A stretch of 64,000 bases of DNA from Pseudomaricurvus alkylphenolicus (lineage in GTDB: Bacteria > Pseudomonadota > Gammaproteobacteria > Pseudomonadales > Cellvibrionaceae). The stretch spans positions 1,054,001 to 1,118,000 of the forward strand of contig NZ_JAAQPI010000001.1 in the NCBI RefSeq assembly GCF_011683955.1, given 5' to 3'. The notes beneath the pieces are model-generated. The model made no database searches. It saw nothing but the letters and a program-made list of their open reading frames with translations, and was not told where the DNA came from. Shown one piece after another: positions 1 through 18,575 of this stretch. Position numbers and translations under genes: made by a program. Numbering within the stretch: position 1 is the first letter of the stretch; each line of letters opens with the position of its first letter.

Positions 1-1017
1 ACCGGACTGCCCTACGCCAGCACCGCGGTAGCCACCGAGCAAAATGGGCTCGAAGTACCCGTGATGCACGCCTGCGGTCACGACGTACATATGACGGTGT
101 TGGTGGGGACCGCCAGGCGTCTGAGGGCATTGAGCGGGCATTGGCAGGGCACACTGGTTATGATCGCACAACCCGCCGAGGAGCGTTTGGCGGGTGCCAA
201 AAAAATGCTGGAAGACGGGCTCTTTGAACGTTTCCCTCGCCCCGATGCCAATCTCGCGTTACATGTCAGTGATCAGTTTGATGCGGGCACCGTGGCATTC
301 ACCGAAGGCTATATGACCGCCAACGTCGACTCCGTTAATATCCGCGTATTCGGCGAGGGTGGACACGGTGCCTTGCCTCATCAAGCCAAGGACCCGATTG
401 TACTGGCCTCTCAAATTGTACTGGGATTGCAGGCATTGGTTGCACGGGAAGTACCGGCGCTAGACCCCGCCGTGGTTACCGTCGGCTCGTTTCAGGCCGG
501 TTCGAAACACAACGTGATTCCCAATCACGCCGATTTATTGTTAACGGTACGAACCTATTCCGATGACGTGCGACAGCAGTTGCTGGAGGGCATCGAGCGA
601 GTCGCCAAAGGTATGGGCATCGCCGCCGGCTTGCCGGACAGACTGCTGGCCGAGGTCAAGATGCTGGAAGAGGAGAGAACCCTGTCTCACTATAACGACG
701 ATCATTTGTCCCGGCAGGTCAAGGCGCTCTTGCAGGAGCGCCTTGGTGAAGAACGAGTGCTCGCCAGCGATAGCGTTATGGGCGGTGAGGACTTCGCTTT
801 GTACAGTCGCGTCGATCCCCCCATTCCAGGACTGATGTTCTGGCTGGGAGCGTCCGACCCGAATAGATCGGACAATCCACACATGCACAATTCCGGTTTT
901 GCACCGCTGGCTTCACCCACCATTCAAACCGGGGTGTTGGCGATGAGTGAGGCGGTACTTAAATTGATGCGATCGCAATCGGAGCGTGGTTATTCCGCTA
1001 AAGATCGATCTCAATAA
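1..1017 (+). CDS. M20 family amidohydrolase, 5' truncated by the window edge
   Basis: The reading frame is open from base 1, so the N-terminus lies outside the window; the internal ATG at 61 is not the start. The family is metal-dependent amidohydrolases of the hippurate hydrolase / N-acyl amino acid deacylase type, which release a carboxylic acid from an amide conjugate. Visible family motifs are HACGHDVHM, QPAEE, the dimerisation-domain segment GEGGHGALPH and the C-terminal MGGEDFALYS. The gene runs toward the reductive dehalogenase gene and their 3' ends overlap by 20 bases. Its place in the aromatic island would fit hydrolysis of an aroyl-amino acid conjugate, but that is inference; substrate specificity cannot be read from the sequence. 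Confidence 0.88.
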   Translation, partial: TGLPYASTAVATEQNGLEVPVMHACGHDVHMTVLVGTARRLRALSGHWQGTLVMIAQPAEERLAGAKKMLEDGLFERFPRPDANLALHVSDQFDAGTVAFTEGYMTANVDSVNIRVFGEGGHGALPHQAKDPIVLASQIVLGLQALVAREVPALDPAVVTVGSFQAGSKHNVIPNHADLLLTVRTYSDDVRQQLLEGIERVAKGMGIAAGLPDRLLAEVKMLEEERTLSHYNDDHLSRQVKALLQERLGEERVLASDSVMGGEDFALYSRVDPPIPGLMFWLGASDPNRSDNPHMHNSGFAPLASPTIQTGVLAMSEAVLKLMRSQSERGYSAKDRSQ

Positions 1018-4000
1018 CACCATTTTCCTCAGCCGCACGGGACTGACAAAGAATCAGGCTCTGCTCACGTTGAGCATTGGACAGCACAAAGTCCCTGTGT
1101 TCAACCTCGCCGGATTTCAACCCGCATTTGCAAACACCACAGATCCCGTCGCCGCATTTAACATCGACATGGATACCCGCTGCGATCAGTGCATCCGCTG
1201 CCGTCTGCTCCGCATCGACTTTAATCTCTCTGCCGGAGTCCGCCAGTCTCAAGGTAAAGTCATGATTCTCGTAATCGGGTGTTTCCGGAATGGTGAAGTA
1301 TTCTTTGTGCAAGGCGGGTTCCGGCCATCCATTTCGCTCCCCGGCCTCCAGTACAGAGGTCATATAACGTTCAGGACCACAGGTATACAGATGGTAACCC
1401 TCATGGTAATCGCTGAGGAGGGCATCCAGATTCACGCGGTTGCCTTCGTCCGAAAAGTGATACTGTACTTTGTCAGCCCAGGGCATAGTCGCCAGGTCTT
1501 CCAAAAAGCCTGCATTTTCACGGCGACTGCATGAGTAGTGCAGCTCAAACTCGGCATTGATGGCATGGAGCCGATGTGCCATGGCAATCATCGGAGTAAT
1601 ACCAATACCACCGCCCATCAGATAGGTTTTGGTTGCGCACTCATCCAGCGGGAAGTGATTGAGAGGGCGCGAGATAAACACCTTGCGGCCTTCCTGGAAA
1701 ATCTTGTGCAGCAGTTTTGAGCCGCCACGGCCTTCATCTTCGCGCAGGACACCAATCTGGTATTTACTGCGGTCTGCCGGATCACCGGAGAGACTGTACT
1801 GGCGGAAAAACTCAGGAGCGACCACCACATCCAAATGCGCACCGGCATCAAACTCCGGCAGTGGCGATCCATCCAGCGAAGTAAACTCATACTTGGTGAC
1901 GCCATCGGTCATGGTTTCCGCCTTGGAGACCTGAACTCGCATAACCGGTGCCGGTCCTTCAGGTTCCTTGTATTCGTGGGCGAGGTGTTCGGTTTCGCCA
2001 CGGGCAAGTTTCGCCCGGTATTGCTCGGGCGTCAGCATATCCTGATAGGCCTTAATGCCGGCTTCGCGATCCATGGGGAACGGGAAGGGATAGGGCGGTG
2101 GTGCCAGGTTCGCCGGATACACCGCGAGCGTTTGGTCTTCAAATTTAAGCTCCAGATCGGTTTGCAGTTCGCGCACATTGCTGCCGTTATCGGAAAGCGT
2201 GTAGGGTCCTTCGTCTTCCATTTCCAGATCCCACCACCACTTCTTCACCGGGTTGATGCTGCCGTTGCCCAGTTTGTCATCCAGTTTGGCCAGGGTTTTG
2301 GCGCCGCCGGGAATATGGCTGGCGGCCCAGCGGAAAGGTGCCTCGGCAAACAGCCCTTCCAGGTTCCAGGGGCAGGTTTTCATGCAGCGGCCACACATGG
2401 CTCCCGCCGCATTGGTCAAACGGTAGGTGGTGCACTTCTGGCTGTCTGACTTCCAGATCTCATAGCCGTTGAACATGGTCTTGGGGCCGGCGGTAATTGC
2501 GCCGGAGGGGCATTCGCGAGCACATTTATTGCAGCTGTTACAAAAGTTCTGTAAACCAAAATCAATCGGTTTGTCATGCACGAGAGGCATATTAGTGGTG
2601 ATGGCGCCGGACTTCAGGCGCGGGCCCAAGTAAGGGTTCAAAATCACTTCGCCAATTCGACTCACCTCGCCCAGGCCGGACAACAACAGCAACGGCGGCT
2701 GCAGTACCTCTCCATCCATGACGGTGTGAGAGCGGGCACTGTAGCCGAGATTGCGGATTTGTTCGGCCACCACGCCTCCCAACAGTGAAAAGCGCAAATA
2801 GGCGCGCATGGACTGACTGCAGGCAATCCAGTCGTCGCCGGAAGCGCCGTCCATGGTTTCATGCCCTTGATCGATAACGACCGAAATCGCGTTTTTGTGA
2901 TAGGGCGCCAGAGGTTCGCCCAGTGCATCGTGAGAATAGTATGTCCAGTCCGGGCAGCGGCTGATGCCAACCGCATCGGCGCCCAGAAAATAGAGCGCGG
3001 CTTTGATGTTGTCGGCATTGCGCTGCGGGTCTTTGGTTGTATCGGACAGCAACGCGTTCTTTTCGCCGTCCTGCAGCAGGACGAATGCGGCCAGCGGTCG
3101 ACGCGGACCGAAACTGGCGGCACTTTTGCGTACATAGTTGCCATTGCGGGCGGCCTGCTGCACGTGTTTGCCCATATCACCAAAAATGGCGCGGGCGAAC
3201 ATGTCGGTTCGTTTGGGCACCCGGGCGACTCGCAATTCGTCGATAAAGGTGGTGGTTTCATCGACCCGCTTGAGTTTTTCAAACGGGAAAGCGCCATCCT
3301 TAAAGCGGCGTTTGGCAAAGGGTTTGGCGTTAAAGGCGTTTTTGACAAAACCACCCTTGGGCGAACCGCCCATCCACCAGGCGGGGCCGTGGCTTTTCAG
3401 CCGCTCGGCGAGCCCCTGATTGGCGCTGGGGGCCAAGGGTAGATCCGGAGCCAATTCAAAGGTGGTGGTAATGGCACCTATACCAAATTCGCGGCCCAGG
3501 TAGGGGTTATAAACGGCGGGGCCTTCGGAGGTTTGTCTGACTTCTCCCAGGCCCGCAGCCACCGCCAACTTGTTCAAGTCGACATCCGAGCAGGCGCCGG
3601 TATGCCCCCGCGCCTCGTAACCCAGCAGACGCAGGTAGTTGCTCAGCACAATCACCGTTTCCGCTGCCCGCAGGCAGGCCCGTTGGGCTTGAGCCTCTTG
3701 AATCCAGTCGCCACCGGTTTCATCGCGCTCGGGATCGCGGGGGAATTCGTACAAGAAAACCAGTGCATGGGTGTGGTGGTCCACGCGGGTGGGCGGTGCT
3801 TCCATGGTGTCTTTGAGCTCCGCCATGACCACATCGATACCGGCAGCCAGGGTTTTGGTCTGCTTGGTGCGCAAGTCCTCGGCCAGTTGCCCGATATCCG
3901 GATTGACGATGGGCTCCGGCAATAGCATTTCAGGGTGCAACTCGCACACACCGGCCTGGGAGGCGTCATGATAATAACCGAAGGCTTTGAGGTGATTGCT

Positions 4001-4264
4001 GCGCTCCTGCCGGTCAGTGGGGACGACTCCTCGCTCTTTTTTGACCAGACCGTCACGAATGGCATCCAGCATTGCCTGGTAACGGGTCATGGCATTCACC
4101 AGGTTTTCCGGATTCGACGGGTCGTGGAAGGAGGTTGCCTGCATGGGTGGTACAGCGGTTAAATCCGGCGGTGTCGATGCTCGCTGCAGTCGCTCCAGGG
4201 GGTAAGGCCCCAAATGTACCGGTCGATCTTTATAGGAAAATACTCGCATCTGCCCTAATCCCAT
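998..4264 (-). CDS. Self-sufficient cobalamin-dependent reductive dehalogenase fused to flavin reductase and [2Fe-2S] ferredoxin
   Basis: Predicted to remove halogen reductively from an aromatic using cobalamin, with electrons from NAD(P)H passed down its own domains. A degenerate dehalogenase-like half (about 95-280) is followed by the active half (about 390-640) with two [4Fe-4S] sites: Cys575, 578, 581, 585 and Cys611, 624, 627, 631. Then comes a ferredoxin-reductase part (about 770-990) with flavin motif RQYSLSGDP (821-829) and nucleotide motif GGGIGITP (884-891), and a plant-type [2Fe-2S] domain (Cys1037, 1042, 1045, 1073). Tyr489, Lys551 and Arg615 have the same spacing as the active-site Tyr426, Lys488 and Arg552 that I recall for RdhANP of Nitratireductor pacificus. 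There is no Tat signal, which argues for a cytoplasmic catabolic enzyme like BhbA of Comamonas. Numbering uses the ATG at 4264; an ATG at 4249 (MRVFSYKDRP) may be the true start. Confidence 0.93.
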   Translation of the reverse strand: MGLGQMRVFSYKDRPVHLGPYPLERLQRASTPPDLTAVPPMQATSFHDPSNPENLVNAMTRYQAMLDAIRDGLVKKERGVVPTDRQERSNHLKAFGYYHDASQAGVCELHPEMLLPEPIVNPDIGQLAEDLRTKQTKTLAAGIDVVMAELKDTMEAPPTRVDHHTHALVFLYEFPRDPERDETGGDWIQEAQAQRACLRAAETVIVLSNYLRLLGYEARGHTGACSDVDLNKLAVAAGLGEVRQTSEGPAVYNPYLGREFGIGAITTTFELAPDLPLAPSANQGLAERLKSHGPAWWMGGSPKGGFVKNAFNAKPFAKRRFKDGAFPFEKLKRVDETTTFIDELRVARVPKRTDMFARAIFGDMGKHVQQAARNGNYVRKSAASFGPRRPLAAFVLLQDGEKNALLSDTTKDPQRNADNIKAALYFLGADAVGISRCPDWTYYSHDALGEPLAPYHKNAISVVIDQGHETMDGASGDDWIACSQSMRAYLRFSLLGGVVAEQIRNLGYSARSHTVMDGEVLQPPLLLLSGLGEVSRIGEVILNPYLGPRLKSGAITTNMPLVHDKPIDFGLQNFCNSCNKCARECPSGAITAGPKTMFNGYEIWKSDSQKCTTYRLTNAAGAMCGRCMKTCPWNLEGLFAEAPFRWAASHIPGGAKTLAKLDDKLGNGSINPVKKWWWDLEMEDEGPYTLSDNGSNVRELQTDLELKFEDQTLAVYPANLAPPPYPFPFPMDREAGIKAYQDMLTPEQYRAKLARGETEHLAHEYKEPEGPAPVMRVQVSKAETMTDGVTKYEFTSLDGSPLPEFDAGAHLDVVVAPEFFRQYSLSGDPADRSKYQIGVLREDEGRGGSKLLHKIFQEGRKVFISRPLNHFPLDECATKTYLMGGGIGITPMIAMAHRLHAINAEFELHYSCSRRENAGFLEDLATMPWADKVQYHFSDEGNRVNLDALLSDYHEGYHLYTCGPERYMTSVLEAGERNGWPEPALHKEYFTIPETPDYENHDFTLRLADSGREIKVDAEQTAADALIAAGIHVDVKCGDGICGVCKCGLKSGEVEHRDFVLSNAQREQSLILCQSRAAEENGVIEIDL

Positions 4265-4343
4265 GCTGCAGTCATTGTCTGCTCATTACTTAAAGCACTA
4301 CTGTATAGGAGTACCTGACATTAGAAAATTATTATAAACTTAT

Positions 4344-4357
4344 ATGTTCTATAACAT
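4344..4357. promoter_or_regulatory. Imperfect palindrome in the dehalogenase/LysR divergent promoter
   Basis: The 117-base gap between the dehalogenase and the divergent LysR gene is AT-rich and holds ATGTT-N4-AACAT, a dyad of the size and symmetry LysR-type regulators bind. It ends 24 bases before the LysR start. A role as operator for both genes is inferred from position only. Confidence 0.4.
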
Positions 4358-4381
4358 TAATGTATAGGTAAGGTCGGACCC

Positions 4382-5329
4382 ATGACACCGAAACAGCTCA
4401 CCTATTTTACCCGTATTGCCGAGTGCGGAAGCTTCGCGGCGGCCTCAAAAGACCTCCATATCGCCCAACCTGCGCTGAGTCAGCAGATTGCCAATTTGGA
4501 AACTCAGTTGGGGGTGGAGTTGTTTTACCGTAAGCCCAGAGGCGTGGAGCTGACGGAGAGCGGTAAGCGACTAATGAATCGGGCCTACGGTATCCTGCGT
4601 GAAATTGAATCCACCGTGTTGGATATCCAGTCGGCTGATTTGCAACCCAGTGGTGAACTTCGCGTTGGCATAGTGCCGGCGATCAATAACGTTATGGCCA
4701 GTCAGCTGGTCTCGCAGATGGAGCAGCGATACCCGCAGGTTGAGCTGGAGGTGATCAGCGGAGCCTCCCGTTACCTCAATCAGCAGTTGGAGGGGCGCAA
4801 AATCGATATCTGCATTGTGCACCCTGACAGCGGCGGTTTTGGAGACTTCACCACCGAACCTTTGCTGCGAGAAGAGTTGTTTTTTGTTGGGGCAGCGACA
4901 AACAGCTATCCCCATATCAAAAAACGGGGCCAGCAGAGGGTGATCCGTTTTGCTGATATTGCACACTACGTCACCTTATCGACAGAAGTTCATGACGGCC
5001 TTGGATTCAGAGTGCATCAGTACGAGGAAGAGACCGGAGTTGAACTCAACAAGAAACGTTCCTATGGACAACTGCTCACCGACTTGAATGTTATTCTGGA
5101 GGGGCAAGCGCAAATGATTTTGCCCTGGTCAGCGTTCTTTCATTTGGCCGGCGACAAACGTTTGGTTATCGCAAAGATTGTCGAGCCGGTACTTCATCGC
5201 GATGTGTTTATGTTGACGTCTCCAAGTCAGCCGTTGACGAACACTCTGATCAAATCCCAGAGTCTGATTAAGGAGCTGGTGGGGGATATTTTTGTCCAGG
5301 GGCGTAGCGTGGGGGAGTCACTGGTATAG
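4382..5329 (+). CDS. LysR-type transcriptional regulator, divergent from the dehalogenase gene
   Basis: A 315-residue LysR-type regulator of usual length. The N-terminal winged helix-turn-helix is clear (MTPKQLTYFTRIAECGSF, then AQPALSQQIANLE), followed by a periplasmic-binding-protein-like effector domain from about residue 90. It is transcribed away from the reductive dehalogenase across a 117-base AT-rich gap, the usual arrangement for a LysR protein and its target. The natural inference is that it controls the dehalogenase gene in response to the halogenated substrate or a pathway intermediate. Its effector cannot be read from the sequence. It resembles the Nac/Cbl-like branch of the family, but that placement is weak. 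Confidence 0.9.
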   Translation: MTPKQLTYFTRIAECGSFAAASKDLHIAQPALSQQIANLETQLGVELFYRKPRGVELTESGKRLMNRAYGILREIESTVLDIQSADLQPSGELRVGIVPAINNVMASQLVSQMEQRYPQVELEVISGASRYLNQQLEGRKIDICIVHPDSGGFGDFTTEPLLREELFFVGAATNSYPHIKKRGQQRVIRFADIAHYVTLSTEVHDGLGFRVHQYEEETGVELNKKRSYGQLLTDLNVILEGQAQMILPWSAFFHLAGDKRLVIAKIVEPVLHRDVFMLTSPSQPLTNTLIKSQSLIKELVGDIFVQGRSVGESLV

Positions 5330-5911: not shown

Positions 5912-6808
5912 TTAGTGTTGGCTTTTGCGATAAGCGCCGGCCGTTACGCCCTCCAGCTTTTTAAAAAACCGCGAAAAGTACCCCTGATCTTTAAACCCCA
6001 ATAAAAAGGCGATCTCCTCAACAGACTGACGGGTATAAACCAAACGACGTTTGGCTTCAGCCATTAAACGTTGCTGTACAATCGTCTTTGGGCTGGCTCC
6101 GGCGAACTCATGACAGAGGCGGTTCAGCGTCGAGGTGGACACGTGTAACTCTTCTGCATACAGAGAGACGGGCCAGTGCTCACGAAAATGGCGCTCCACC
6201 AACGCACGAAAACGATTGAGTAACAGTGATTCTCGGTCGGCAATATCGGTTTCCAGTCGATTCTGTTGCAGTTGTCGGTTCAGGCTTAACAGGGTCAAGT
6301 TGGCGAGTAGCGCCAGCGCCTGGTTGCGGTCATTGGAGTAGTGGTCAAACTCCTCGCGGATCTGCTCGATATAGCAGAGGAACTGACGGAACTGGCGTTC
6401 CTCTTCGTTACACCTCATCAATTGCGGCGCGAGATGAATTTCCGTAGCGGGATTAAGATGACGGTCGCTGTGCGCTTTGGTCATTATCGATTCATCAACG
6501 GATAATACGAAGCCGCGGCTGTCTGGCTGAAAGCGAAACCCGTGTACCACTCCGGCAGGTATGGTCACCAACCAGCTTCCGCTCAGCTCGTGTTGGTTGT
6601 CATCCAGGGATACCGTCAGTTCTCCATCAAAAATGCATAAGGTCTGGAACAATCGGGTATGGCGATGGGGTTTGATGACCCAGCCCAGCTCGCTGCTGCG
6701 TTCTGCAATGTCCTCAATGTGGACGAATCCCGGGTCACTTTCTATCGGTTGTTCACCGTATAAACCGTAAAGGGGAACCTTATTTTCTGAAGCAGTTTTA
6801 GTAGGCAT
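5912..6808 (-). CDS. AraC/XylS-family regulator with N-terminal cupin, PobR-like
   Basis: A 298-residue regulator with an N-terminal cupin-like sensing domain (motif PHRHTRLFQT) and a C-terminal double helix-turn-helix of AraC type (about 190-295; the second helix pair ends LLGFKDQGYFSRFFKK). The start is placed at the ATG at 6808 (MPTKTASENK) because residues upstream of it look unlike the family. It is divergent from pobA, which begins 154 bases away. AraC-type PobR/PobC proteins activate pobA on 4-hydroxybenzoate in pseudomonads, so this is the likely pobA activator; that assignment is inference. A second, related regulator follows pobA. Confidence 0.88.
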   Translation of the reverse strand: MPTKTASENKVPLYGLYGEQPIESDPGFVHIEDIAERSSELGWVIKPHRHTRLFQTLCIFDGELTVSLDDNQHELSGSWLVTIPAGVVHGFRFQPDSRGFVLSVDESIMTKAHSDRHLNPATEIHLAPQLMRCNEEERQFRQFLCYIEQIREEFDHYSNDRNQALALLANLTLLSLNRQLQQNRLETDIADRESLLLNRFRALVERHFREHWPVSLYAEELHVSTSTLNRLCHEFAGASPKTIVQQRLMAEAKRRLVYTRQSVEEIAFLLGFKDQGYFSRFFKKLEGVTAGAYRKSQH

Positions 6809-6899
6809 GCGGAACTCGTGGTGCTGGTCTATGCAGCAATCATTTCGGACGATGTTGGCACACCTGATTGAAAAGTACAATTTTCAGATCGATAAGTGA

Positions 6900-8174
<1,275 letters not shown>

Positions 8175-8183
8175 TTCACGGCA

Positions 8184-9062
8184 CTAGGAGCCATTTCGGA
8201 AAGCCCGTGGATTTTCACCGCTTTTTTTCTTGAAAAAACGGGTGAAGTGCGAGGGGTCGGAGAAGCCCAATTGATAGGCAATTTCGGCAATACTCCGGCC
8301 GGTATAGATCAGGCTGCGTTTAGCTTCCAGCAGCAGGCGCTGGTGAACTATCTCCAGTGCCGAGTGCTGACTGATTCTGCGGCAGATACTGTTCAGATGT
8401 GGTGGGGTGATGCCGAGTCGCTCGGCGTACTGAGACACTGGCCAGTGTTCGCTATAGTGCTCTTCCACCAGTCGGATAAAGGCATTGTAGTGTATCTGCC
8501 CGCGGTCATGCCTCTCGGGAGCGGGTGTTTCAGGAACATCGCGGCGGCTCAGGCAAACCAACAGCGTCGTCAAACAGGATTCCAGCATCAGCTGCCGGGA
8601 GGTGGCCCGACTCCGGTATTCACGCGCAATGGTGTCAAACAGTGTATCCAACAGTGATTGCTCTGCGCCGGCGATATAGACCTCGGCGGTTTTCAGGGCA
8701 CCGGTGGTGCCTTCCAGAGACTGTGCAATGCGGTTGAGCAGCGGAGAGGCAATGGAGAGTACCTGCCCCTCGGCGTCCGGCGTCCAGACAAAATCATGTA
8801 CGCAGCCCTCCGGTACCACCAGCACACAGGTGGGGGAGAGGTGCGTCAGTACGCCGTCCAGATGAGCCTCGGCGGAACCCTTTTGCAGGTAGAACAACTG
8901 CGTGATACCGCTGTGGCGGTGGGGGTTGATCTTCCAGTTGTGTTGTCGGCTGCGTTCCACCAGGGGCTCACAGTGCAGCATCTCCAGCTCAAGATTCAAC
9001 ACTGAAGACGGTTTGTCCTCGCCATAGACGACGAAATCGGGAATATCAGCGAATTTGGCCAT
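8184..9062 (-). CDS. AraC/XylS-family regulator, second PobR-like copy
   Basis: A 292-residue regulator with the same build as the one before pobA: a cupin-like domain (PHRHSGITQLFYL) and an AraC DNA-binding domain (about 190-290, with YQLGFSDPSHFTRFFKK). The start is placed at the ATG at 9062; a GTG or ATG six codons upstream is possible. It is convergent with pobA (9 bases between stops) and divergent from ligA, with 111 bases between. The layout suggests it answers to protocatechuate or 4-hydroxybenzoate and drives ligABC. The gap before ligA contains ATGGCCAT, a short palindrome that could be part of an operator. The effector is unknown. Confidence 0.86.
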   Translation of the reverse strand: MAKFADIPDFVVYGEDKPSSVLNLELEMLHCEPLVERSRQHNWKINPHRHSGITQLFYLQKGSAEAHLDGVLTHLSPTCVLVVPEGCVHDFVWTPDAEGQVLSIASPLLNRIAQSLEGTTGALKTAEVYIAGAEQSLLDTLFDTIAREYRSRATSRQLMLESCLTTLLVCLSRRDVPETPAPERHDRGQIHYNAFIRLVEEHYSEHWPVSQYAERLGITPPHLNSICRRISQHSALEIVHQRLLLEAKRSLIYTGRSIAEIAYQLGFSDPSHFTRFFKKKSGENPRAFRNGS

Positions 9063-9173
9063 AATCTTCGAAATTGACAACTATCCCCACCATTTGTCCA
9101 TTCATTATGGCCATTAACTAGTGAAAAATACAACTCATCGGAAGGGTAAGTCACCGACTCAAGAGGACCTATT

Positions 9174-9575
9174 ATGGTTTGGCAAGCGCACGACTACGAC
9201 GATATACCTGGAACCTATGTGTTCGATGGTCAAAGGGCCCACAGCTCCTATGCCCTGAACAAGTTGTTCTACTCCTTTAACACCGAGGCCTGTCGCAAGG
9301 AATTTGATGCGGATCCCGCCGCCTACTGCGATAAGTTTGGCCTCAGTCCTGAGCACAAGCAACTGGTGGTGGAACAGGACTTCTTGGGCATTTTGAGAGC
9401 GGGTACCAATATCTACTATCTGGCCAAGTTCTGCGTACCCCGTGGCGTGACCGTGCAGGATGCGGGCGCCGCATTCCAGGGCATCAGCGGCGATGAGTTT
9501 CGGGAAACACTGTTGAAAAAACGCGAGGGTCTGGAAGAGAGACTGGCGCAGGAGGGAGGTTACTGGAATGGCTAA
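9174..9575 (+). CDS. ligA: Protocatechuate 4,5-dioxygenase, alpha subunit
   Basis: The small subunit of the LigAB extradiol dioxygenase, which opens the ring of protocatechuate to 4-carboxy-2-hydroxymuconate-6-semialdehyde. Its 133 residues carry the conserved LigA features IPGTYVFDG near the N-terminus and the central segment NTEACRKEF followed by a helical bundle that caps the beta-subunit active site. A Shine-Dalgarno AGAGGA lies 7 bases before the ATG. The last 8 bases overlap the ligB start, so the two subunits are translationally coupled, as in other ligAB operons. Confidence 0.96.
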   Translation: MVWQAHDYDDIPGTYVFDGQRAHSSYALNKLFYSFNTEACRKEFDADPAAYCDKFGLSPEHKQLVVEQDFLGILRAGTNIYYLAKFCVPRGVTVQDAGAAFQGISGDEFRETLLKKREGLEERLAQEGGYWNG

Positions 9576-10413
9576 AATCATCGGTGGTGTCACCACATCT
9601 CATATTCCCGCCGTGGGCAATGCTATCAGCGACGGTGTTACTCAAGAGCATTACTGGAAACGTTTTTTCGACGGTTACCAGCCGGTGCACGCCTGGTTGG
9701 ACGAGAAAAAACCCGACGTGATTATCGTTGTCTACAACGACCACGGGCTTAACTTCTTTCTCGACAAAGCCCCCACCTTCGCGATCGGCTGCGCGGATCA
9801 ATACGAGAATGCCGACGAAGGCTGGGGCTTGAAACCCACTGCGCCATTTACCGGCGACGCACAATTTTCCTGGCATCTGGCGGAGTCGCTGATCGAGCAG
9901 GAGTTTGATATGTGCACCTGCCAGGAGATGCTGGTGGACCACGGCTTCGTCAACCCGGTGCGGGTTCTGTACGGAGACCACGAGCACTGGCCGGTAAAAA
10001 CCATTCCCCTGGCGGTCAATACCGTTCAGCACCCGCTGCCGAGCGCCAAGCGCTGTTTTAAGCTGGGGCAGGCGTTGAAGCAGGCTATCGAGTCCTATCC
10101 GGAAGACATCAATGTCGCGGTGGTGGGAACCGGTGGTATGTCTCATCAGCTACAGGGGGAGCGAGCAGGTATTATCGACGTCGATTATGATCTGGCCTGT
10201 ATGGATAGCGTCATTAACGACCCGGCCTGGTTCTATAATCAATCCAATGCCGAGATTATCGAAAAGGCAGGCACCGAAGGCATCGAGACGATTATGTGGT
10301 TGGTGATGCGCGGTGCTCTGGGTGACAAGGTGAATTGTCTGCACAAGCACTACCACGCACCGATTTCCAACACGGGTGCCGGTGTATTGCTTCTGGAAGC
10401 TGCCGACGAATAA
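9568..10413 (+). CDS. ligB: Protocatechuate 4,5-dioxygenase, beta (catalytic) subunit
   Basis: The Fe(II)-binding subunit of the class III extradiol dioxygenase. The metal ligands known from Sphingobium LigB (His12, His61, Glu242) are matched by His12, His59 and Glu240, and the catalytic His195 by His193 in GTGGMSHQ; the constant two-residue offset supports the alignment. Its 281 residues lack the C-terminal tail of some homologues. It overlaps ligA by 8 bases and is followed by ligC after 20 bases, so ligABC is one operon. Halogenated protocatechuates can inactivate or divert such enzymes, which makes prior dehalogenation sensible; this last point is inference. Confidence 0.97.
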   Translation: MAKIIGGVTTSHIPAVGNAISDGVTQEHYWKRFFDGYQPVHAWLDEKKPDVIIVVYNDHGLNFFLDKAPTFAIGCADQYENADEGWGLKPTAPFTGDAQFSWHLAESLIEQEFDMCTCQEMLVDHGFVNPVRVLYGDHEHWPVKTIPLAVNTVQHPLPSAKRCFKLGQALKQAIESYPEDINVAVVGTGGMSHQLQGERAGIIDVDYDLACMDSVINDPAWFYNQSNAEIIEKAGTEGIETIMWLVMRGALGDKVNCLHKHYHAPISNTGAGVLLLEAADE

Positions 10414-10433
10414 CTTTTCTTGAGGAAATTAAA

Positions 10434-11378
10434 ATGAAAGTCATGGTTGTAGGGCCGGGAGCCTTTGGTATCAAGCATCTTGATGGGCTTAAGAACATTG
10501 ATGGTGTGGATGTGGTTTCATTAGTTGGTCACAATCTTGAAAAGGCCCGTAGTGTCGCCGAAGCGTACGGCATTGCTCATGTGGCTGATGATTTGGCCGA
10601 GGCGTTGGTAGAAACAGATGCCGATGCAGTCATTCTCTGTACGCCCACACAGATGCATGCCGCCCAGGCTATTCAATGCATGGAAGCCGGTAAACATGTG
10701 CAAGTGGAAATCCCCGTGGCGGACAGCTGGGCCGACGCTGAAGCGGTGATGGCCAAGCAGAAGGACACCGGATTGGTGTGCATGGTCGGGCACACGCGCC
10801 GATTTAATCCCTCCCATCAGTGGTTACACAACCGCCTTGCTCAGGGTGAGTTGAATATTCAGCAGATGGATGTGCAGACCTATTTCTTCCGGCGTAAAAA
10901 TATCAATGCCAAAGGCGAGCCCCGCAGCTGGACTGATCACCTGCTGTGGCACCACGCGGCTCATACGGTGGATCTGTTTGCCTACCAGGCGGGATCACCG
11001 ATTGTTCAAGCCAATGCCATTCAGGGACCGATACACCCTGAGTTGGGTATCGCCATGGACATGTCCATCCAGATGAAGACCGAAAACGGTGCGATTTGTA
11101 CCTTGTCGCTTTCATTCAATAACGATGGCCCATTGGGTACCTTCTTCCGGTATATCTGCGATAACGGTACCTATATCGCCCGCTACGATGATCTGTTTGA
11201 CGGCAAGGAAGAGGCCATTGATGTGACTCAGGTGGATGTCTCCATGAATGGCATTGAGCTTCAGGACCGGGAATTCGTCGCAGCAATCCGCGAAGAAAGA
11301 GAGCCCAATGCCAGCATCTCCAAGGTGCTGCCCTGCTACAAAGTGCTGTATGATCTGGAGCAGCAACTGGCAGGTTAA
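10434..11378 (+). CDS. ligC: 4-carboxy-2-hydroxymuconate-6-semialdehyde dehydrogenase
   Basis: A Gfo/Idh/MocA-family dehydrogenase that oxidises the LigAB ring-fission product (as its hemiacetal) to 2-pyrone-4,6-dicarboxylate with NAD(P)+. The N-terminal dinucleotide fold has GPGAFG, and long stretches match the LigC family closely, for example GHTRRFNPSHQ, PRSWTDHLLWHHAAH and LSFNNDGPLGTFFRYIC. The start is the ATG at 10434, preceded by TGAGGA; an upstream in-frame ATG at 10335 lies inside ligB and is rejected. The next enzymes (LigI lactonase, LigU, LigJ, LigK) are absent from this window and must lie elsewhere if the pathway is complete. Confidence 0.96.
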   Translation: MKVMVVGPGAFGIKHLDGLKNIDGVDVVSLVGHNLEKARSVAEAYGIAHVADDLAEALVETDADAVILCTPTQMHAAQAIQCMEAGKHVQVEIPVADSWADAEAVMAKQKDTGLVCMVGHTRRFNPSHQWLHNRLAQGELNIQQMDVQTYFFRRKNINAKGEPRSWTDHLLWHHAAHTVDLFAYQAGSPIVQANAIQGPIHPELGIAMDMSIQMKTENGAICTLSLSFNNDGPLGTFFRYICDNGTYIARYDDLFDGKEEAIDVTQVDVSMNGIELQDREFVAAIREEREPNASISKVLPCYKVLYDLEQQLAG

Positions 11379-11420: not shown

Positions 11421-12407
11421 ATGCAGCGACAACTGGGAATCCATCAAGTTAATGCCATCGGGCTTGGCTGTATGAATCTGAGCCATGCCTATGGCGTGGC
11501 GCCGGAGAAAAAAGATGCGGTGCGGCTGCTGCAGCGGGCGGTGGAACTGGGGGTGACCCATTTCGATACCGCGGCTCTTTACGGATTTGGTCGCAACGAA
11601 TGTCTGGTCGGTGAGGCGCTTAAACCTTATCGCCAGAACCTTCATCTGGCGAGCAAATGTGGCATGACCGGCGTCGACGGTAAGCGTGTGATTGACGGTC
11701 GGCCGGAAACACTGATGCGCACCATCGAGACGTCGCTCAAAAACCTGCAGACAGAGCATATTGATCTTTACTACCTGCACCGCTGGGACAAGTCAGTCCC
11801 CATTGAAGACAGCGTGGGCGCTTTGTCGCGTATGGTGGAGCAGGGCAAGATCGGTGCGGTGGGCTTGTCGGAAGTTTCCGCCGACACCCTGAAGAAGGCC
11901 AATCAAGTTCACCCGATCACCGCACTGCAAACGGAATATTCCCTGTGGACCCGCAATCCCGAAATTGCGGTGCTTGATGCCTGTCGAGAGCTGGGGGTGA
12001 CGTTTGTGGCCTTTAGTCCGTTGGCCCGTGGCTTTCTCAGTGGCGGGATCAGCGATCCCTCAAAGCTGGTTGAGAAGGATATTCGGGTGAATATGCCGCG
12101 ATTCCAGGAGCCCAATTTCTCGAAAAACCTGAAGCTGTTTGACTCGTATAAGCAGCTGGCGGATGGTGCAGGTTGTACACCAGGTCAGTTGGCACTGGCC
12201 TGGTTGTTAGCCCAGGGGGAAGACATTGTCCCGATTCCCGGAACACGCTCCGTTGAGCATCTTGAAGAAAACCTCGGCGCCTTGGAGTTGACTATTGATA
12301 AAGGGACGCTTGAAGCCGCGGGCGAGATTGTCAATCATCTGACCGTGAACGGGCCACGTTATCCGGAGGCTACACAGGCTGAGATCGATACGGAGGAGTT
12401 TGGTTAG
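11421..12407 (+). CDS. Aldo/keto reductase
   Basis: A 328-residue NADPH-dependent aldo/keto reductase of the YhdN/Tas-like branch. The family tetrad is visible: Asp in FDTAALYG, the Tyr of the same motif, Lys in ASKCG and His in LYYLHRWD. The C-terminal cofactor segment IPGTRSVEHLEENLGA is typical. It lies 42 bases after ligC on the same strand, so it is probably co-transcribed. It could reduce an aldehyde or keto side product of aromatic breakdown, but no such role is established for a member of this operon. The operon ends at a strong hairpin 22 bases after the stop. Confidence 0.9.
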   Translation: MQRQLGIHQVNAIGLGCMNLSHAYGVAPEKKDAVRLLQRAVELGVTHFDTAALYGFGRNECLVGEALKPYRQNLHLASKCGMTGVDGKRVIDGRPETLMRTIETSLKNLQTEHIDLYYLHRWDKSVPIEDSVGALSRMVEQGKIGAVGLSEVSADTLKKANQVHPITALQTEYSLWTRNPEIAVLDACRELGVTFVAFSPLARGFLSGGISDPSKLVEKDIRVNMPRFQEPNFSKNLKLFDSYKQLADGAGCTPGQLALAWLLAQGEDIVPIPGTRSVEHLEENLGALELTIDKGTLEAAGEIVNHLTVNGPRYPEATQAEIDTEEFG

Positions 12408-13585: not shown

Positions 13586-14866
13586 TCAGTAGAAAATAAA
13601 GTAATCAGGAAACAGAATGATCAGAGCCAGAATGGTCATCTGCAGCAGGATGAAAGGAATCGCCCCTTTATAGATGGTTTTTGTCATCACGGAGCTGGGA
13701 GCAACACCCTTGAGATAAAACAAACTGAAACCAAAGGGTGGTGTCAAAAACGATGCCTGCAGATTCATGGCAATCAGAATGGCAAACCACACCATATTGA
13801 GACCGAGTGCTTCGGCGATGGGTGCGAGAATGGGAACGACAATAAAGGCGATTTCGATAAAGTCGATAAAAAAGCCCAGTGCGAAGATGCCCAGCATTGC
13901 CAGCGCCAGGAAGGTCCATTTTTCACCGGGCAGGCTGAGAATGTATTCCTCCACCAGATAGTCACCACCGGAGTAACTGAATACCATCGAGAAAGCCGTG
14001 GCGCCCAGTAGTACAGCAAACACCATGGAACTGACCTTGACGGTTTCAAGCGCGGATTCTTTGATCACCTTGAGGGAGAAACAACGATAGATTGCTGCCA
14101 GTATCAGGGCACCAACGCCACCCAGTGCGGAAGACTCTGTCGGAGTGGCCAACCCGGTAAAAATAGAACCCAATACAGCAACGATCAACGCCAACGGAGG
14201 CAGTACATTGAACAGCGCACTGCGAGCGACTTTCCAGCGATCTTCTTCAACGGGAATGGGAGGCGCAAAGTCCGGATTGCGTCGTGTGAGATAGATGATA
14301 TAGAGGATATAAGCCAGAATCAGCGCGGCACCGGGCACCACAGCAGCTTTGAACAGGTCTCCGACAGGAATACCCATCACATCACCCAGAATAATCAAAA
14401 TAATAGAGGGCGGTACGATTTGCCCAAGTGTTCCGGAGGCGCAAATAATGCCCGTGGCAGTGGGCTGGTGGTAGTTGTACTTGAGCATAACCGGCAACGA
14501 AATCACGCCCATGGCCACCACGCTGGCACCGACCACGCCGGTAGACGCCGCCAGAAAGGCACCCACCAATACGGTGGAGATGGCCAGCCCGCCGGACATA
14601 CCACCAAAGAGTTTGCCCATGGATTCCAGCAGGCGTTCTGCCAGACCGGTTTTCTGCAGCACCACGCCCATAAAGATAAACATGGGCACCGCCATCATCA
14701 CGGTGTTTTCCATGATGCTCATAATCCGGTAGGGCATCATCTCAAACAGATCGAGCCCCATGGTCAGGCCGCCGACCAGCAATGACACTCCCGCGAAAGT
14801 AAAGGCAATGGGATAGCCGACAAACAACAGCAACAGAGCTGTCACAAACAGGACGATACCGATCAT
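13586..14866 (-). CDS. TRAP transporter large permease (DctM family)
   Basis: A 426-residue inner-membrane protein with about 12 hydrophobic segments, the ion-coupled permease of a tripartite ATP-independent periplasmic transporter. Diagnostic stretches include GASVVAMGVISLPVML, CASGTLGQIVPPSI and NLQASFLTPPFGFSLFYL. It overlaps the small-permease gene by 4 bases, so the two are translationally coupled. Works with the small permease and the periplasmic binding protein encoded just upstream. Confidence 0.95.
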   Translation of the reverse strand: MIGIVLFVTALLLLFVGYPIAFTFAGVSLLVGGLTMGLDLFEMMPYRIMSIMENTVMMAVPMFIFMGVVLQKTGLAERLLESMGKLFGGMSGGLAISTVLVGAFLAASTGVVGASVVAMGVISLPVMLKYNYHQPTATGIICASGTLGQIVPPSIILIILGDVMGIPVGDLFKAAVVPGAALILAYILYIIYLTRRNPDFAPPIPVEEDRWKVARSALFNVLPPLALIVAVLGSIFTGLATPTESSALGGVGALILAAIYRCFSLKVIKESALETVKVSSMVFAVLLGATAFSMVFSYSGGDYLVEEYILSLPGEKWTFLALAMLGIFALGFFIDFIEIAFIVVPILAPIAEALGLNMVWFAILIAMNLQASFLTPPFGFSLFYLKGVAPSSVMTKTIYKGAIPFILLQMTILALIILFPDYFIFY

Positions 14867-15384
14867 TGTTCAGTCTCCTCTTTGGCGCCAATAAAATGCT
14901 GAAATTCGGTCAACATGACCTGTAGTGCACAGAGCATCAAAAATGCTGTAGACGCAGGGATAACGGCGCGAATAATCCAACGATGAGGCAGACCACCGGG
15001 ATCGCCACTGCCTTCGTTCATCAGGAAGGCTTCCTGTGCGTAGCCGTAGCCGGAGGAGAGGATGAGATAAGAAATAGGCAGGGTAAAAACCAGCGTGCCG
15101 ATGATATTGATAATGGCCTGTTTACGAACGGACAAATTCTCAAAGAAGATGTCCACACGAACATGACCATTTTCTTTTAAGGTATAGCCGATACCAAACA
15201 TAAACATGGCGGCGAACAGGTGCCATTCCAGCTCCTGCATAGCGATACTGACGGTATTGAACAGATAGCGCATCACCACGTCGTAAAATACGTTGGCTAA
15301 CATCAACACCATCAGGATGGCGCACAGAATGCCAACAAGATCGATAAAGCGATTCAGCTGTTGCGTTAAAACTCTCATAGTCAA
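14863..15384 (-). CDS. TRAP transporter small permease (DctQ family)
   Basis: A 173-residue protein with four transmembrane segments, of the usual DctQ length. The conserved ELEWHLFAAMFMFGIGYTL and the downstream HVRVD motif are characteristic. It ends in a 4-base overlap with the large permease gene. It is separated from the binding-protein gene by 94 bases holding a hairpin with a T-run, which likely lowers its expression relative to the binding protein. A second in-frame ATG two codons in is an alternative start. Confidence 0.93.
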   Translation of the reverse strand: MTMRVLTQQLNRFIDLVGILCAILMVLMLANVFYDVVMRYLFNTVSIAMQELEWHLFAAMFMFGIGYTLKENGHVRVDIFFENLSVRKQAIINIIGTLVFTLPISYLILSSGYGYAQEAFLMNEGSGDPGGLPHRWIIRAVIPASTAFLMLCALQVMLTEFQHFIGAKEETEQ

Positions 15385-15400
15385 TACATCTTTTTTAGAG

Positions 15401-15435
15401 AAAAAGAGGGGGCTGAAGCAGCGTCAAACCCCCTT
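15401..15435 (-). terminator. Intra-operon attenuator between TRAP binding protein and permeases
   Basis: On the minus strand AAGGGGG pairs with CCCCCT across a loop of about 16 bases and is followed by CTTTTTC. The position, after the binding-protein gene and before the permease genes, is typical of a partial terminator that keeps the binding protein in excess. Confidence 0.6.
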
Positions 15436-15478
15436 GAAAGCGATCGGTAGCCCGATAAATCAGAGAACTGAATTGAAA

Positions 15479-16552
15479 TTAATAAAAGCTATTGAGGTAG
15501 GCCTGATCAGAGAAGCCGGTCCAGTCACGCACTGCTGAGCCGTACTCCTGCTGAGAGGCGATGATCTTGGCTGTCAGTGGACTCTTGTCGGACAGTTCCT
15601 TGAGCAACTCCGAGTTGGCCTTGTGCAGGGCCTGAATCACATCGTCCGGAAAGTCCTGAATCTTGACGTTAGGATAATCCTCACGGATTTGCTTCAGATT
15701 TTCAGCACTGGCGTGGGTGGACTGAATGTACATGTCGTAGGCCGCCACACGCATCGCCGTAGTGAGAATATTCTGCAGGTCTTCGGGCAGGGACTCGTAG
15801 GCCTTTTGGTTCACCATAAACTGAAGTTCGGTGGCCGGCTCATGCCAACCGGTATAGTAGAAAGGCGCAATCTTGTGGAATCCCATGCGCAAGTCCAGTG
15901 AGGGGCCTACCCATTCCAGTGCGTCGATGGTGTTACGCTCCAACGCGGTATAGAGTTCGCCGGAGGGAATATTGGTGGGACTGGCACCGAGTTTGGCGAG
16001 TACTTCTCCGGCAAATCCGGGTATGCGCATCTTCAAACCCTTAAGATCGTCAACGCCTTTAATCTCCTTGCGGAACCAGCCGCCCATCTGTACGCCGGTA
16101 TTACCGCCTGGGAATGACAAAATGCCGTACTTGTCGTAGACGTCCTTCATCAGTTCCATGCCACCGCCATGGTAAAACCAGGCGTACTGCTCGGTGGCGG
16201 TCATGCCAAAGGGCACGGTGGTGAAAAACATGGTGTTGGGGTCTTTGCCTTTCCAGTAGTAAGACGCTGAATGTCCCATTTGGTACTGGCCGCTCTTCAC
16301 AAAATCAAAAATGCCCAGGGCGGATTTATGCTTATTGGATGAATCGATGCGAATGACCAGACGCCCGTCGGACATCTCCTTGACCAACTTCGCCAGATTT
16401 TTGGTGGCATCGCCAAAGATGGGAAAGTTGGGCCCCCAGGTTTCCGCCAGTTTCCATCGGTAAACCTTTTCACCGGCATTGACGACGGAAGCCCCGAGAA
16501 GACTCGCCAGACCGACGGCCATTCCCACTCGTTTTATCATTGTTTTAAACAT
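15479..16552 (-). CDS. TRAP transporter periplasmic substrate-binding protein (DctP/TakP-like)
   Basis: A 357-residue exported binding protein with signal peptide (cleavage after VVNA, about residue 26). The body has the TRAP signature region with LKMRIPGFAGEVLAKLGA, whose arginine clamps the ligand carboxylate, and the ligand-site segment DALEWVGPSLDLRMGFHK. The WVGP and GWHEP segments resemble the TakP group, known for 2-oxo acids and lactate, so the cargo may be a carboxylate other than the aromatic acid itself. It is the first gene of the operon that continues through both permeases to the porin. Its promoter lies in the gap toward the sigma factor gene. Confidence 0.93.
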   Translation of the reverse strand: MFKTMIKRVGMAVGLASLLGASVVNAGEKVYRWKLAETWGPNFPIFGDATKNLAKLVKEMSDGRLVIRIDSSNKHKSALGIFDFVKSGQYQMGHSASYYWKGKDPNTMFFTTVPFGMTATEQYAWFYHGGGMELMKDVYDKYGILSFPGGNTGVQMGGWFRKEIKGVDDLKGLKMRIPGFAGEVLAKLGASPTNIPSGELYTALERNTIDALEWVGPSLDLRMGFHKIAPFYYTGWHEPATELQFMVNQKAYESLPEDLQNILTTAMRVAAYDMYIQSTHASAENLKQIREDYPNVKIQDFPDDVIQALHKANSELLKELSDKSPLTAKIIASQQEYGSAVRDWTGFSDQAYLNSFY

Positions 16553-16872
16553 TATTTGATCCTCTGGAAGCGTTATGGGTCATCAGCTGTCACTGACGAT
16601 GAACAGACTTTAAGAAAACCGGCCAGGCCGGGATATCCGCGACACCACTTAAACGTCCTAAGGGTTTACACTGAGAGTAGGGGGGTAATTTGAGCTGTGA
16701 CCACAAGCTCTAACGCGGTCACAAATAATTTAATAATGAGGTTCGCGCTTTTGTGTTAGTCCGTCTTTATAGGCAGAAGCGGGCTGAATGGGATCTGATC
16801 GCCCGGTACATAGAAGCTCAATGTATTAATAAGACGGGTTTAAAGCGTAGACAGGTCTATAGGGAGCAACCA
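16553..16872. other. Divergent intergenic region between TRAP operon and sigma factor
   Basis: About 320 bases without a supported gene. It must hold the promoters of both the TRAP operon and the sigma factor. It contains a run of seven G near 16679-16686. An in-frame extension of the sigma factor covers the right part, but its residues do not resemble the family. No clear -35/-10 pair or operator was identified. Confidence 0.4.
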
Positions 16873-17385
16873 TTGTCACAGGTGAATGATCAATTCGACC
16901 GAGAGGAGCTGGAGCGCTATCGCAGCGATCTCCTGACCTACGCTCTGGCCAGGGTAAAGGATCGGGCCTTGGCCGAAGATCTGGTGCAGGAATCCTATGT
17001 GCGCCTGTTGGCCAAGGACAACCCGGGCCAGATTGACTGCCTCAAGGGTTACCTGTTGCGCACCATTTACAATCTCTCGATTGATCACTTCCGGTCCCAA
17101 AAGATCCGGCTGATGTCGACGGATGGTGAGGCGGAGATTGAACAGGCCTCAGGCAGCGAAGGTTCGCCGGAACAATGGCTGTCGGAGCGAGAACTGCGGG
17201 CCCGCTTTGAATCGGCCTACGAGGCACTGCCCGAGAAGCAGCAAAAGATTTTCTACTTCAGGCGCATGGAAGGTCAGTCAACAGAGCAGATCGCGAGCAA
17301 GTTTAATATTTCACGGCGTATGGTACAGAAATACATGGCCAAAATTGTCCTTCATTTTCACTCCTATTTACAGGATGACGTTTAA
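16873..17385 (+). CDS. ECF sigma factor, FecI-like
   Basis: About 170 residues with sigma region 2 (LTYALARVKDRALAEDLVQE, YLLRTIYNLSIDHFRS) and region 4 (LPEKQQKIFYFRRMEGQS through the helix-turn-helix SRRMVQKYM). The start is placed at TTG 16873 because AGGGAG lies 6 bases upstream and family homology begins there; the frame is open further upstream to a GTG at 16753. It is followed by a FecR-like gene 11 bases later and a TonB receptor with a signalling domain, the classical cell-surface signalling trio. It would direct RNA polymerase to the receptor gene and perhaps others when the receptor binds its ligand. Confidence 0.9.
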   Translation: MSQVNDQFDREELERYRSDLLTYALARVKDRALAEDLVQESYVRLLAKDNPGQIDCLKGYLLRTIYNLSIDHFRSQKIRLMSTDGEAEIEQASGSEGSPEQWLSERELRARFESAYEALPEKQQKIFYFRRMEGQSTEQIASKFNISRRMVQKYMAKIVLHFHSYLQDDV

Positions 17386-17396
17386 GCGGAATAGCA

Positions 17397-18503: not shown

Positions 18504-18575
18504 CCACAAAGGACGATCAGGAGACTGGCAGGAGCACAGGACCAGACACAATGCGTTAGAAACGCCCAAATTATC

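Follow-up and report, generated by a model that had tools for sequence, protein, structure and literature searches.

The window analyzed here, a 64,000-nucleotide stretch of the genome of Pseudomaricurvus alkylphenolicus (RefSeq assembly GCF_011683955.1, contig NZ_JAAQPI010000001.1, positions 1,054,001 to 1,118,000), carries close to its beginning a gene for a reductive dehalogenase (RDase) that is fused to its own reductase and probably removes bromine from phenols. The RDase open reading frame lies on the minus strand from 4264 to 998 and consists of 1088 uninterrupted codons; the plus-strand frame across the same stretch has several stops. Because the N-termini of the known enzymes NpRdhA (Nitratireductor pacificus) and BhbA (Comamonas sp. 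7D-2) align at Met6 of the window protein (window position 4249), the gene probably extends from 4249 to 998. The following parts were recognized.

998..4249, minus strand: fused, predicted self-sufficient reductive dehalogenase, 1083 amino acids from the likely start Met6 (listed open reading frame 998-4264, 1088 amino acids)
1979..4249, minus strand: residues 6-762, the catabolic RdhA portion, which aligns with NpRdhA (4ras)
2798..2800, minus strand: codon of Tyr489 (NpRdhA Tyr426, the proton donor), placed by alignment, invariant
2612..2614, minus strand: codon of Lys551 (NpRdhA Lys488), placed by alignment, invariant
2420..2422, minus strand: codon of Arg615 (NpRdhA Arg552), placed by alignment, invariant
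2363..2542, minus strand: two [4Fe-4S] sites, residues 575-634, from a Pfam match and conserved cysteines
1295..1942, minus strand: flavin mononucleotide (FMN)/NAD(P)H reductase segment, roughly residues 775-990, of the same type as phthalate dioxygenase reductase, from the match to 2pia
1034..1243, minus strand: C-terminal [2Fe-2S] domain, residues 1008-1077, from Pfam Fer2 and conserved cysteines

The protein matched the reductive dehalogenase family TIGR02486 of NCBIfam with 208.3 bits (cut-off 160.35, E-value 2.4e-61), and Pfam placed Fer4 at residues 575-634 and Fer2 at residues 1008-1077. In phmmer searches against solved structures, NpRdhA (4ras) was found with an E-value of 2.5e-164, its best stretches being residues 6-112 and 163-762. 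Residues 775-1083 matched phthalate dioxygenase reductase (2pia) with an E-value of 7.6e-55. As to the duplicated, vestigial N-terminal domain expected of the catabolic self-sufficient subgroup, the protein aligned to residues 1-103 of NpRdhA and from 112 onward, and the TIGR02486 match came in two stretches. The [4Fe-4S] motifs of RDases are expected to have the forms CX2CX2CX3CP and CX12CX2CX3CP, and both forms are present, at residues 575-586 (C575-x2-C578-x2-C581-x3-C585) and 611-632 (C611-x12-C624-x2-C627-x3-C631), while the [2Fe-2S] motif is C1037-x4-C1042-x2-C1045-x27-C1073. Conservation was read from 48 aligned sequences, namely the window protein and those of 47 among the best 80 related loci of a contig scan. 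The eight [4Fe-4S] and four [2Fe-2S] cysteines were invariant in all 48, as were Arg821, Tyr823 and Ser824, which we take to be a flavin-site motif. An earlier note on this DNA had described a cobalamin-type dehalogenase with two [4Fe-4S] sites joined to its own flavin reductase and [2Fe-2S] domain, and the intact minus-strand fusion agrees with that description in each of its parts. The C-terminal 310 residues resemble phthalate dioxygenase reductase, which is a separate protein serving an oxygenase, and the presence of this FMN/NAD(P)H/[2Fe-2S] reductase within the same chain supports the proposal that the enzyme would need only NAD(P)H.

No RRxF motif of a twin-arginine translocation (Tat) signal occurs within the first 60 residues, and no strongly hydrophobic 19-residue stretch indicative of a membrane segment was found (maximum Kyte-Doolittle value 1.28 over the whole protein and 0.23 in the first 60 positions), in line with the cytoplasmic location that had been proposed. 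Membership in TIGR02486 would also suit an organohalide-respiratory RDase, but this is highly improbable for a protein that lacks a Tat motif and a membrane segment, carries a fused NAD(P)H reductase and is encoded near oxygenase genes. The composition of the RDase gene gave no sign of foreign origin, its G+C content at third codon positions being 0.644 as against 0.642 for the PobA gene nearby. Judged from its sequence, the window gene is real and intact and its predicted product is a self-sufficient, cytoplasmic, catabolic RDase fused to a reductase. Enzymes of this type have been described before and are widely distributed, and the window protein is one more of them; most catabolic RdhAs carry a reductase domain of the phthalate dioxygenase reductase (PDOR) type (PMC10463259).

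The catalytic residues are those of NpRdhA. In a gap-free aligned stretch, Tyr489, Lys551 and Arg615 coincide with Tyr426, Lys488 and Arg552 of NpRdhA, a correspondence that the earlier note had claimed and that a second alignment confirmed, and the three residues are invariant in the 48 sequences. Ser422, Met423 and Phe291 of NpRdhA are retained as Ser485, Met486 and Phe356, which are also invariant in all 48; the roles of the active-site residues derive from substrate complexes of NpRdhA (PMC7565698). The likeness to NpRdhA (4ras, 6zxu) thus lies in the catalytic residues and the RdhA part as a whole, whereas the two differ in that NpRdhA has no fused reductase and is only about 40% identical to the window protein. 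According to the literature, in vitro work with the partners from its own cluster did not re-create the electron supply of NpRdhA (PMC10463259).

The earlier note had regarded close relatives as few, which proved incorrect: a single contig scan returned 135 loci encoding relatives. The best 80 of the 135 (L009 to L088) showed 61-81% identity in the best segment; their flanks vary in length, with about 8 kb on both sides in 49 of the 80. By title, most of these best 80 loci come from Rhodobacteraceae or Roseobacter-type genera, which are marine, and the nearest among them (78-81%) are from metagenome-assembled genomes (MAGs) of Cellvibrionales and a MAG of Exilibacterium. Eight relatives covering at least 80% of the protein are on plasmids, including pBHB of Comamonas, which carries BhbA, and none was found in the viral contigs searched. 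Within 97 sampled related genomes, 5 carried an RDase, the window's own genome counted (9 matched, 4 of them solely through the reductase part), and none of the 5 other genomes of the genus matched in this search. In genome G030, of the window's own family, the RDase matches that of L010, the Exilibacterium MAG locus, at every column compared, and Exilibacterium belongs to the Cellvibrionaceae of the Gammaproteobacteria. Of the marine gammaproteobacterial host suggested earlier, the gammaproteobacterial part therefore stands, and the habitat may be marine, as judged from the relatives. In a literature search on RDases in Cellvibrionales and Halieaceae, 'reductive dehalogenase' was absent among the matches listed. 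With the window protein, a debrominase family of which few among the many sequenced members have been tested gains a gammaproteobacterial branch.

To place the protein, two phylogenetic trees were used. The first contained 94 rows, 90 of them different (L098-L100 and G338 repeat L030, L009, L010 and L013), and excluded L056 and L083, from which no open reading frame was extracted, and the truncated L088. The second, used for approximately unbiased (AU) tests of groups chosen after the first tree had been viewed, comprised 29 rows with NpRdhA left out. In the second tree the window protein clusters with 19 scan loci (100/100), and BhbA and its relative from Nitratireductor OM-1 cluster with another fused RDase of the same genome, C11:738k (100/98). 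Forced placement of the window protein in the BhbA clade was rejected (p-AU 0.0002).

The RDase gene is divergent from a LysR regulator gene, beyond which lie genes of aromatic catabolism.

4321..4365, no strand assigned: conserved intergenic block of RDase and LysR, in which the window, L009 and L030 agree at 27 of 45 columns; an ATAC-N7-TTAT box occupies 4351-4365
4382..5329, plus strand: LysR regulator, oriented divergently to the RDase; L009 and L030 have a homolog of 70-71% identity at the corresponding position
5912..6880, minus strand: AraC-family regulator, HpaA-like (below cut-off)
6951..8174, plus strand: PobA, 4-hydroxybenzoate 3-monooxygenase (TIGR02360, 646 bits, cut-off 538.7)
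8184..9080, minus strand: second HpaA-like AraC-family regulator (below cut-off)
9174..9575, plus strand: protocatechuate 4,5-dioxygenase alpha subunit-like protein, LigA (below cut-offs)
9568..10413, plus strand: class III extradiol dioxygenase, LigB-like (NF009901, 441 bits, cut-off 290)
10428..11378, plus strand: GFO/IDH/MocA oxidoreductase, probable LigC (named by position; family matches below cut-off)
11421..12407, plus strand: aldo-keto reductase (family matches below cut-off)
13586..16552, minus strand: TRAP transporter, with a DctP-type binding protein at 15479-16552 and, named by eye, DctQ at 14863-15384 and DctM at 13586-14866

In L009 and L030 the divergent LysR is kept beside the RDase while the remaining neighbours differ. 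The 27 columns of the intergenic block that are common to the window, L009 and L030 compare with a mean of 10.5 and a maximum of 16 in 200 mononucleotide shuffles, and each of the three intergenic regions contains an ATAM-N7-KTAT box, a form typical of LysR regulators. These patterns make the divergent LysR, acting through the intergenic region common to both genes, the most likely regulator of RDase transcription.

A published counterpart is JtRdhA of Jhaorihella thermophila (WP_104007082), which is fused, driven by NADPH and active in the presence of oxygen, and which debrominates and deiodinates ortho-halophenols, while chlorinated compounds merely inhibit it (PMC10463259). Compared by its published description, it shares with the window protein the full-length RdhA-PDOR fusion, the lack of a Tat signal and the Tyr/Lys/Arg site, and its identity to NpRdhA is about 39% (PMC10463259), close to that of the window protein. 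We consider it probable, at roughly 0.77, that the window protein is an NAD(P)H-driven cytoplasmic ortho-debrominase under probable LysR control, acting on some bromophenolic compound. Starting from the observed anatomy, the conserved catalytic residues, the LysR pairing in two relatives and the phylogeny, its cofactor loading, electron path, substrate, halogen and regulation may be pictured as follows. NAD(P)H would reduce the C-terminal FMN, and electrons would pass through the fused [2Fe-2S] cluster and the two [4Fe-4S] clusters to a base-off cobalamin. Lys551, Arg615 and Ser485 would hold the hydroxyl of a bound phenol, whose ortho halogen would be positioned on cobalt, and Tyr489, helped by Lys551, would protonate the carbon upon departure of the halide. 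The product would then enter aerobic ring cleavage, for which the nearest route in the window would lead from 4-hydroxybenzoate through PobA to LigAB.

With regard to the leaving halogen, bromine or chlorine had been proposed. Bromine is retained as the most likely, but since JtRdhA is inhibited by the tested chlorinated compounds and does not turn them over, the chlorine part of the claim is unsupported (PMC10463259). It is accordingly unlikely that the window RDase also dechlorinates natural or pollutant chlorophenols: its active-site core is that of NpRdhA, which reduces chlorinated compounds and is contrasted with JtRdhA on this point, but binding without turnover in JtRdhA speaks against such activity (PMC10463259).

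Several observations weigh against an ortho-debrominase of the kind proposed. Around the conserved core the pocket has changed, with Phe290, Phe310, Pro311, Ala419 and Asn452 of NpRdhA replaced by Met355, Tyr377, Val378, Cys482 and Val515, and with Lys307 replaced by Ala372 at a sixth, loosely aligned position; in NpRdhA, Lys307 contacts the carboxylate of the bound ligand (PMC7565698). The substrate of NpRdhA therefore cannot be transferred to the window protein. The replacing residues are frequent among the 48 aligned sequences (Val515 in 48, Tyr377 in 46, Met355 in 41, Val378 in 39, Ala372 in 34 and Cys482 in 32), and thus largely represent the pattern of the window's clade. BhbA, encoded on pBHB (L107), has the same fusion, a full-length match and lig genes nearby, but is only 50% identical to the window protein. 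A LysR homolog of at least 40% identity was not found in the available flanks of L010, L011, L012 and L013, which belong to the same clade, and pob/lig genes were not found beside the RDase of the close relatives L009 and L030 within their available flanks. Finally, Ros_A3X954, an enzyme of another, short type, lost its activity on exposure to oxygen (PMC13101508).

The last enzyme comes from the marine bacterium Roseobacter sp. MED193 and resembles the window protein in being a cytoplasmic debrominase without a Tat signal; it differs in its shorter chain, whose [4Fe-4S] motifs lie at 283-294 and 337-345, and the same source describes putative BhbA homologs as widespread in Roseobacters (PMC13101508). 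MED193 also encodes a fused protein (L023) that is 65% identical to the window protein. We considered whether L023 is the published Ros_A3X954 and rejected this, as the published motif positions fit a short RDase.

The neighbouring genes raise the question of the substrate. PobA, the LigA- and LigB-like proteins and the probable LigC suggest an aerobic route from 4-hydroxybenzoate to protocatechuate 4,5-cleavage near the RDase, and the window gene could encode a debrominase dedicated to a pathway like that of BhbA, converting 3,5-dibromo- or 3-bromo-4-hydroxybenzoate to 4-hydroxybenzoate for the adjoining PobA, LigAB and LigC. We regard this as tentative, at rather less than even odds. The genes concerned are 2.7-7 kb from the RDase start; RDase genes are also found near lig genes in Comamonas pBHB, Nitratireductor OM-1, L058 and the locus of the paralog C11:738k; and the best tested substrate of JtRdhA was 3,5-dibromo-4-hydroxybenzoate (PMC10463259). 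However, homologs of LigA, LigB and LigC adjoin the RDase in L058, from an alphaproteobacterial MAG, alone among the 80 scan loci (disregarding a GFO/IDH hit of 26% in L078), and PobA occurs near the RDase in none of them, within flanks of varying length (outside the scan, L123 has PobA about 5-6 kb from its RDase). Moreover, it is C11:738k that clusters with BhbA, whereas the window protein belongs to another clade by the AU test and has another pocket pattern. C11:738k is 56% identical to BhbA and has the BhbA pocket pattern at the listed positions, except for Ala in place of the BhbA Ser at 419. The pathway link drawn in the earlier note fits this BhbA-clade paralog better than the window gene, and C11:738k is predicted to be the better candidate for bromo-4-hydroxybenzoates. 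Hence the aerobic catabolic setting claimed before is present in the window as PobA and LigA/LigB-like genes, but this linkage is rarely kept, and the BhbA-clade enzyme is another gene.

Under a different explanation, the substrates would be simple bromophenols (2,6-dibromophenol, 2,4,6-tribromophenol and similar compounds), removed for detoxification or as an entry into phenol catabolism, and the pob/lig adjacency would be due to chance. This is possible yet somewhat doubtful. In most of the clade's relatives neither lig nor pob genes were seen, the LysR-RDase pair is constant in L009 and L030 amid changing neighbours, the RDase has a MarR gene ahead of it in the same orientation in 30 of the 74 loci whose upstream sequence reaches 1.5 kb or more, and bromophenols are common in the sea (PMC13101508); but JtRdhA acted on 2,6-dibromophenol at 6.8% of its best rate (PMC10463259). 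Apart from these genes, an MttB-like gene (named by eye) was seen in 29 of the 80 loci, in Rhodobacteraceae loci between L029 and L087.

The genome (assembly of 8.88 Mb in 70 contigs, given as 99.6% complete with 2.1% contamination) contains four full-size catabolic RDases, three of them fused and one unfused. The three loci other than the window are as follows.

L089 649-13347 (G000:C11:729500-749400): BhbA-clade fused paralog C11:738k and its neighbours
L090 6377-15787 (G000:C45:220000-239900): third of the fused paralogs; its neighbours are genes for a TonB receptor and a GMC oxidoreductase and an MFS-type gene
L091 4880-10622 (G000:C70:190500-210400): row of 2-oxoacid:acceptor oxidoreductase alpha and beta subunits, FdxA and, last, the unfused RDase

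The third fused paralog (C45:229k) falls outside the window and BhbA clades, its exact position in the tree not being settled, and the unfused RDase (C70:199k) falls outside all fused RDases (100/100). An origin of the three fused RDases by recent duplication was rejected, as their joint grouping costs 160 log units (p-AU 2e-15). That four RDases of four separate lineages occur in one genome is the less expected part of the result; several catabolic RDases per genome are not new, since a figure legend names RdhA2 and RdhA3 of N. pacificus (PMC10463259). A single host whose four paralogs differ in their pockets offers a test of what determines substrate choice. The C11:738k gene shares four bases with an overlapping gene for an aldehyde dehydrogenase, and the same order of aldehyde dehydrogenase and RDase is found in OM-1; nearby are a LigB-like gene, a P450, an oxalomesaconate tautomerase and an amidohydrolase, which we read as LigI-like (its family match, to 4-sulfomuconolactone hydrolase, is below cut-off). 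A search for lig homologs in the L090 locus found none. Two shorter proteins of the family are also encoded: one of 415 amino acids (L092 5840-7087) with 194 bits for TIGR02486, over the cut-off, whose [4Fe-4S] motif spacing is the same as that of Ros_A3X954, and one of 376 amino acids (L093 4149-5279) with 94 bits, under the cut-off.

The unfused RDase (L091 8346-10622) is on the same strand as the genes preceding it, and the intergenic gaps measure 15-34 bases when 8007 is taken as the start of FdxA. The alpha subunit matched TIGR03710 with 664 bits, over the cut-off, and its nearest solved structure is 6n2n; the beta subunit matched PorB_KorB with 238 bits, below the cut-off of 262; and FdxA was over the cut-off for NF045490 and matched ferredoxin I structures, some of them titled 7Fe. 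Because a second alpha subunit of such an oxidoreductase is encoded elsewhere in the genome, on contig C23, the L091 oxidoreductase may be dedicated to the RDase. We tentatively picture the host as an aerobic dehalogenation specialist with four full-size RDases of four lineages and one or two short ones, in which fused NAD(P)H reductases would feed three of them and a dedicated 2-oxoacid:ferredoxin oxidoreductase with a 7Fe ferredoxin would feed the unfused one, although we hold this picture with less confidence than an even chance would warrant. If the unfused enzyme is indeed fed from oxoacids as the gene order suggests, this would bear on the electron supply of unfused catabolic RDases. The oxidoreductase was rejected as the usual partner of unfused RDases, being not found at six others (L117, L118, L119, L120, L161 and L162), of which L118 lies on a contig of 4.5 kb that limits the negative there. 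Titles and abstract openings among the matches listed in a literature search contained no report of the pairing of RDase and 2-oxoacid oxidoreductase, a Hermodarchaeota paper with all four terms having been left unread. With the unfused paralog as query, matches came from 7 of 369 Gammaproteobacteria and, across the phylum, from 18 of 398 genomes, its own genome counted each time. In two other genomes (L118 927-4460 and L120 6164-9764), the unfused RDase directly adjoins a flavin monooxygenase-like gene, named by eye.

With respect to the cofactor, at least three cobalamin riboswitches were found in the genome (150 of 450 candidates scored), all of them elsewhere and none at the RDase. One heads a cobamide salvage cluster (L134 6563-18425, G000:C34:343000-362500), in which CobQ is over the cut-off, a BtuB-like receptor is under it, and cobU, cobT, cobS, cbiB, btuF, btuC and btuD were recognized by eye. 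The matches to CobI/CbiL in the genome were under the cut-off, with other corrin-ring genes not searched for, so that cobamide salvage is likelier than full synthesis. The presence of salvage genes and riboswitches in the genome favours the proposed reading of the RDase as a cobalamin-dependent enzyme.

The genome is rich in TonB-dependent receptors, and the model of the TonB-B12 receptor gave at least 88 matches (86 of 386 candidates scored, some receptors being hit twice). Downstream of the RDase, genes for a TonB receptor and an M20-type amidohydrolase (window 1-1017, L094 7130-11018) are oriented toward it, with a 20-base overlap between the amidohydrolase gene and the 3' end of the RDase gene, and uptake and cleavage of an amide-linked compound by these two proteins is conceivable. 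Further along the window, at 16753-21155, a sigma factor, a FecR-like regulator and a TonB receptor, named by eye, are encoded consecutively.

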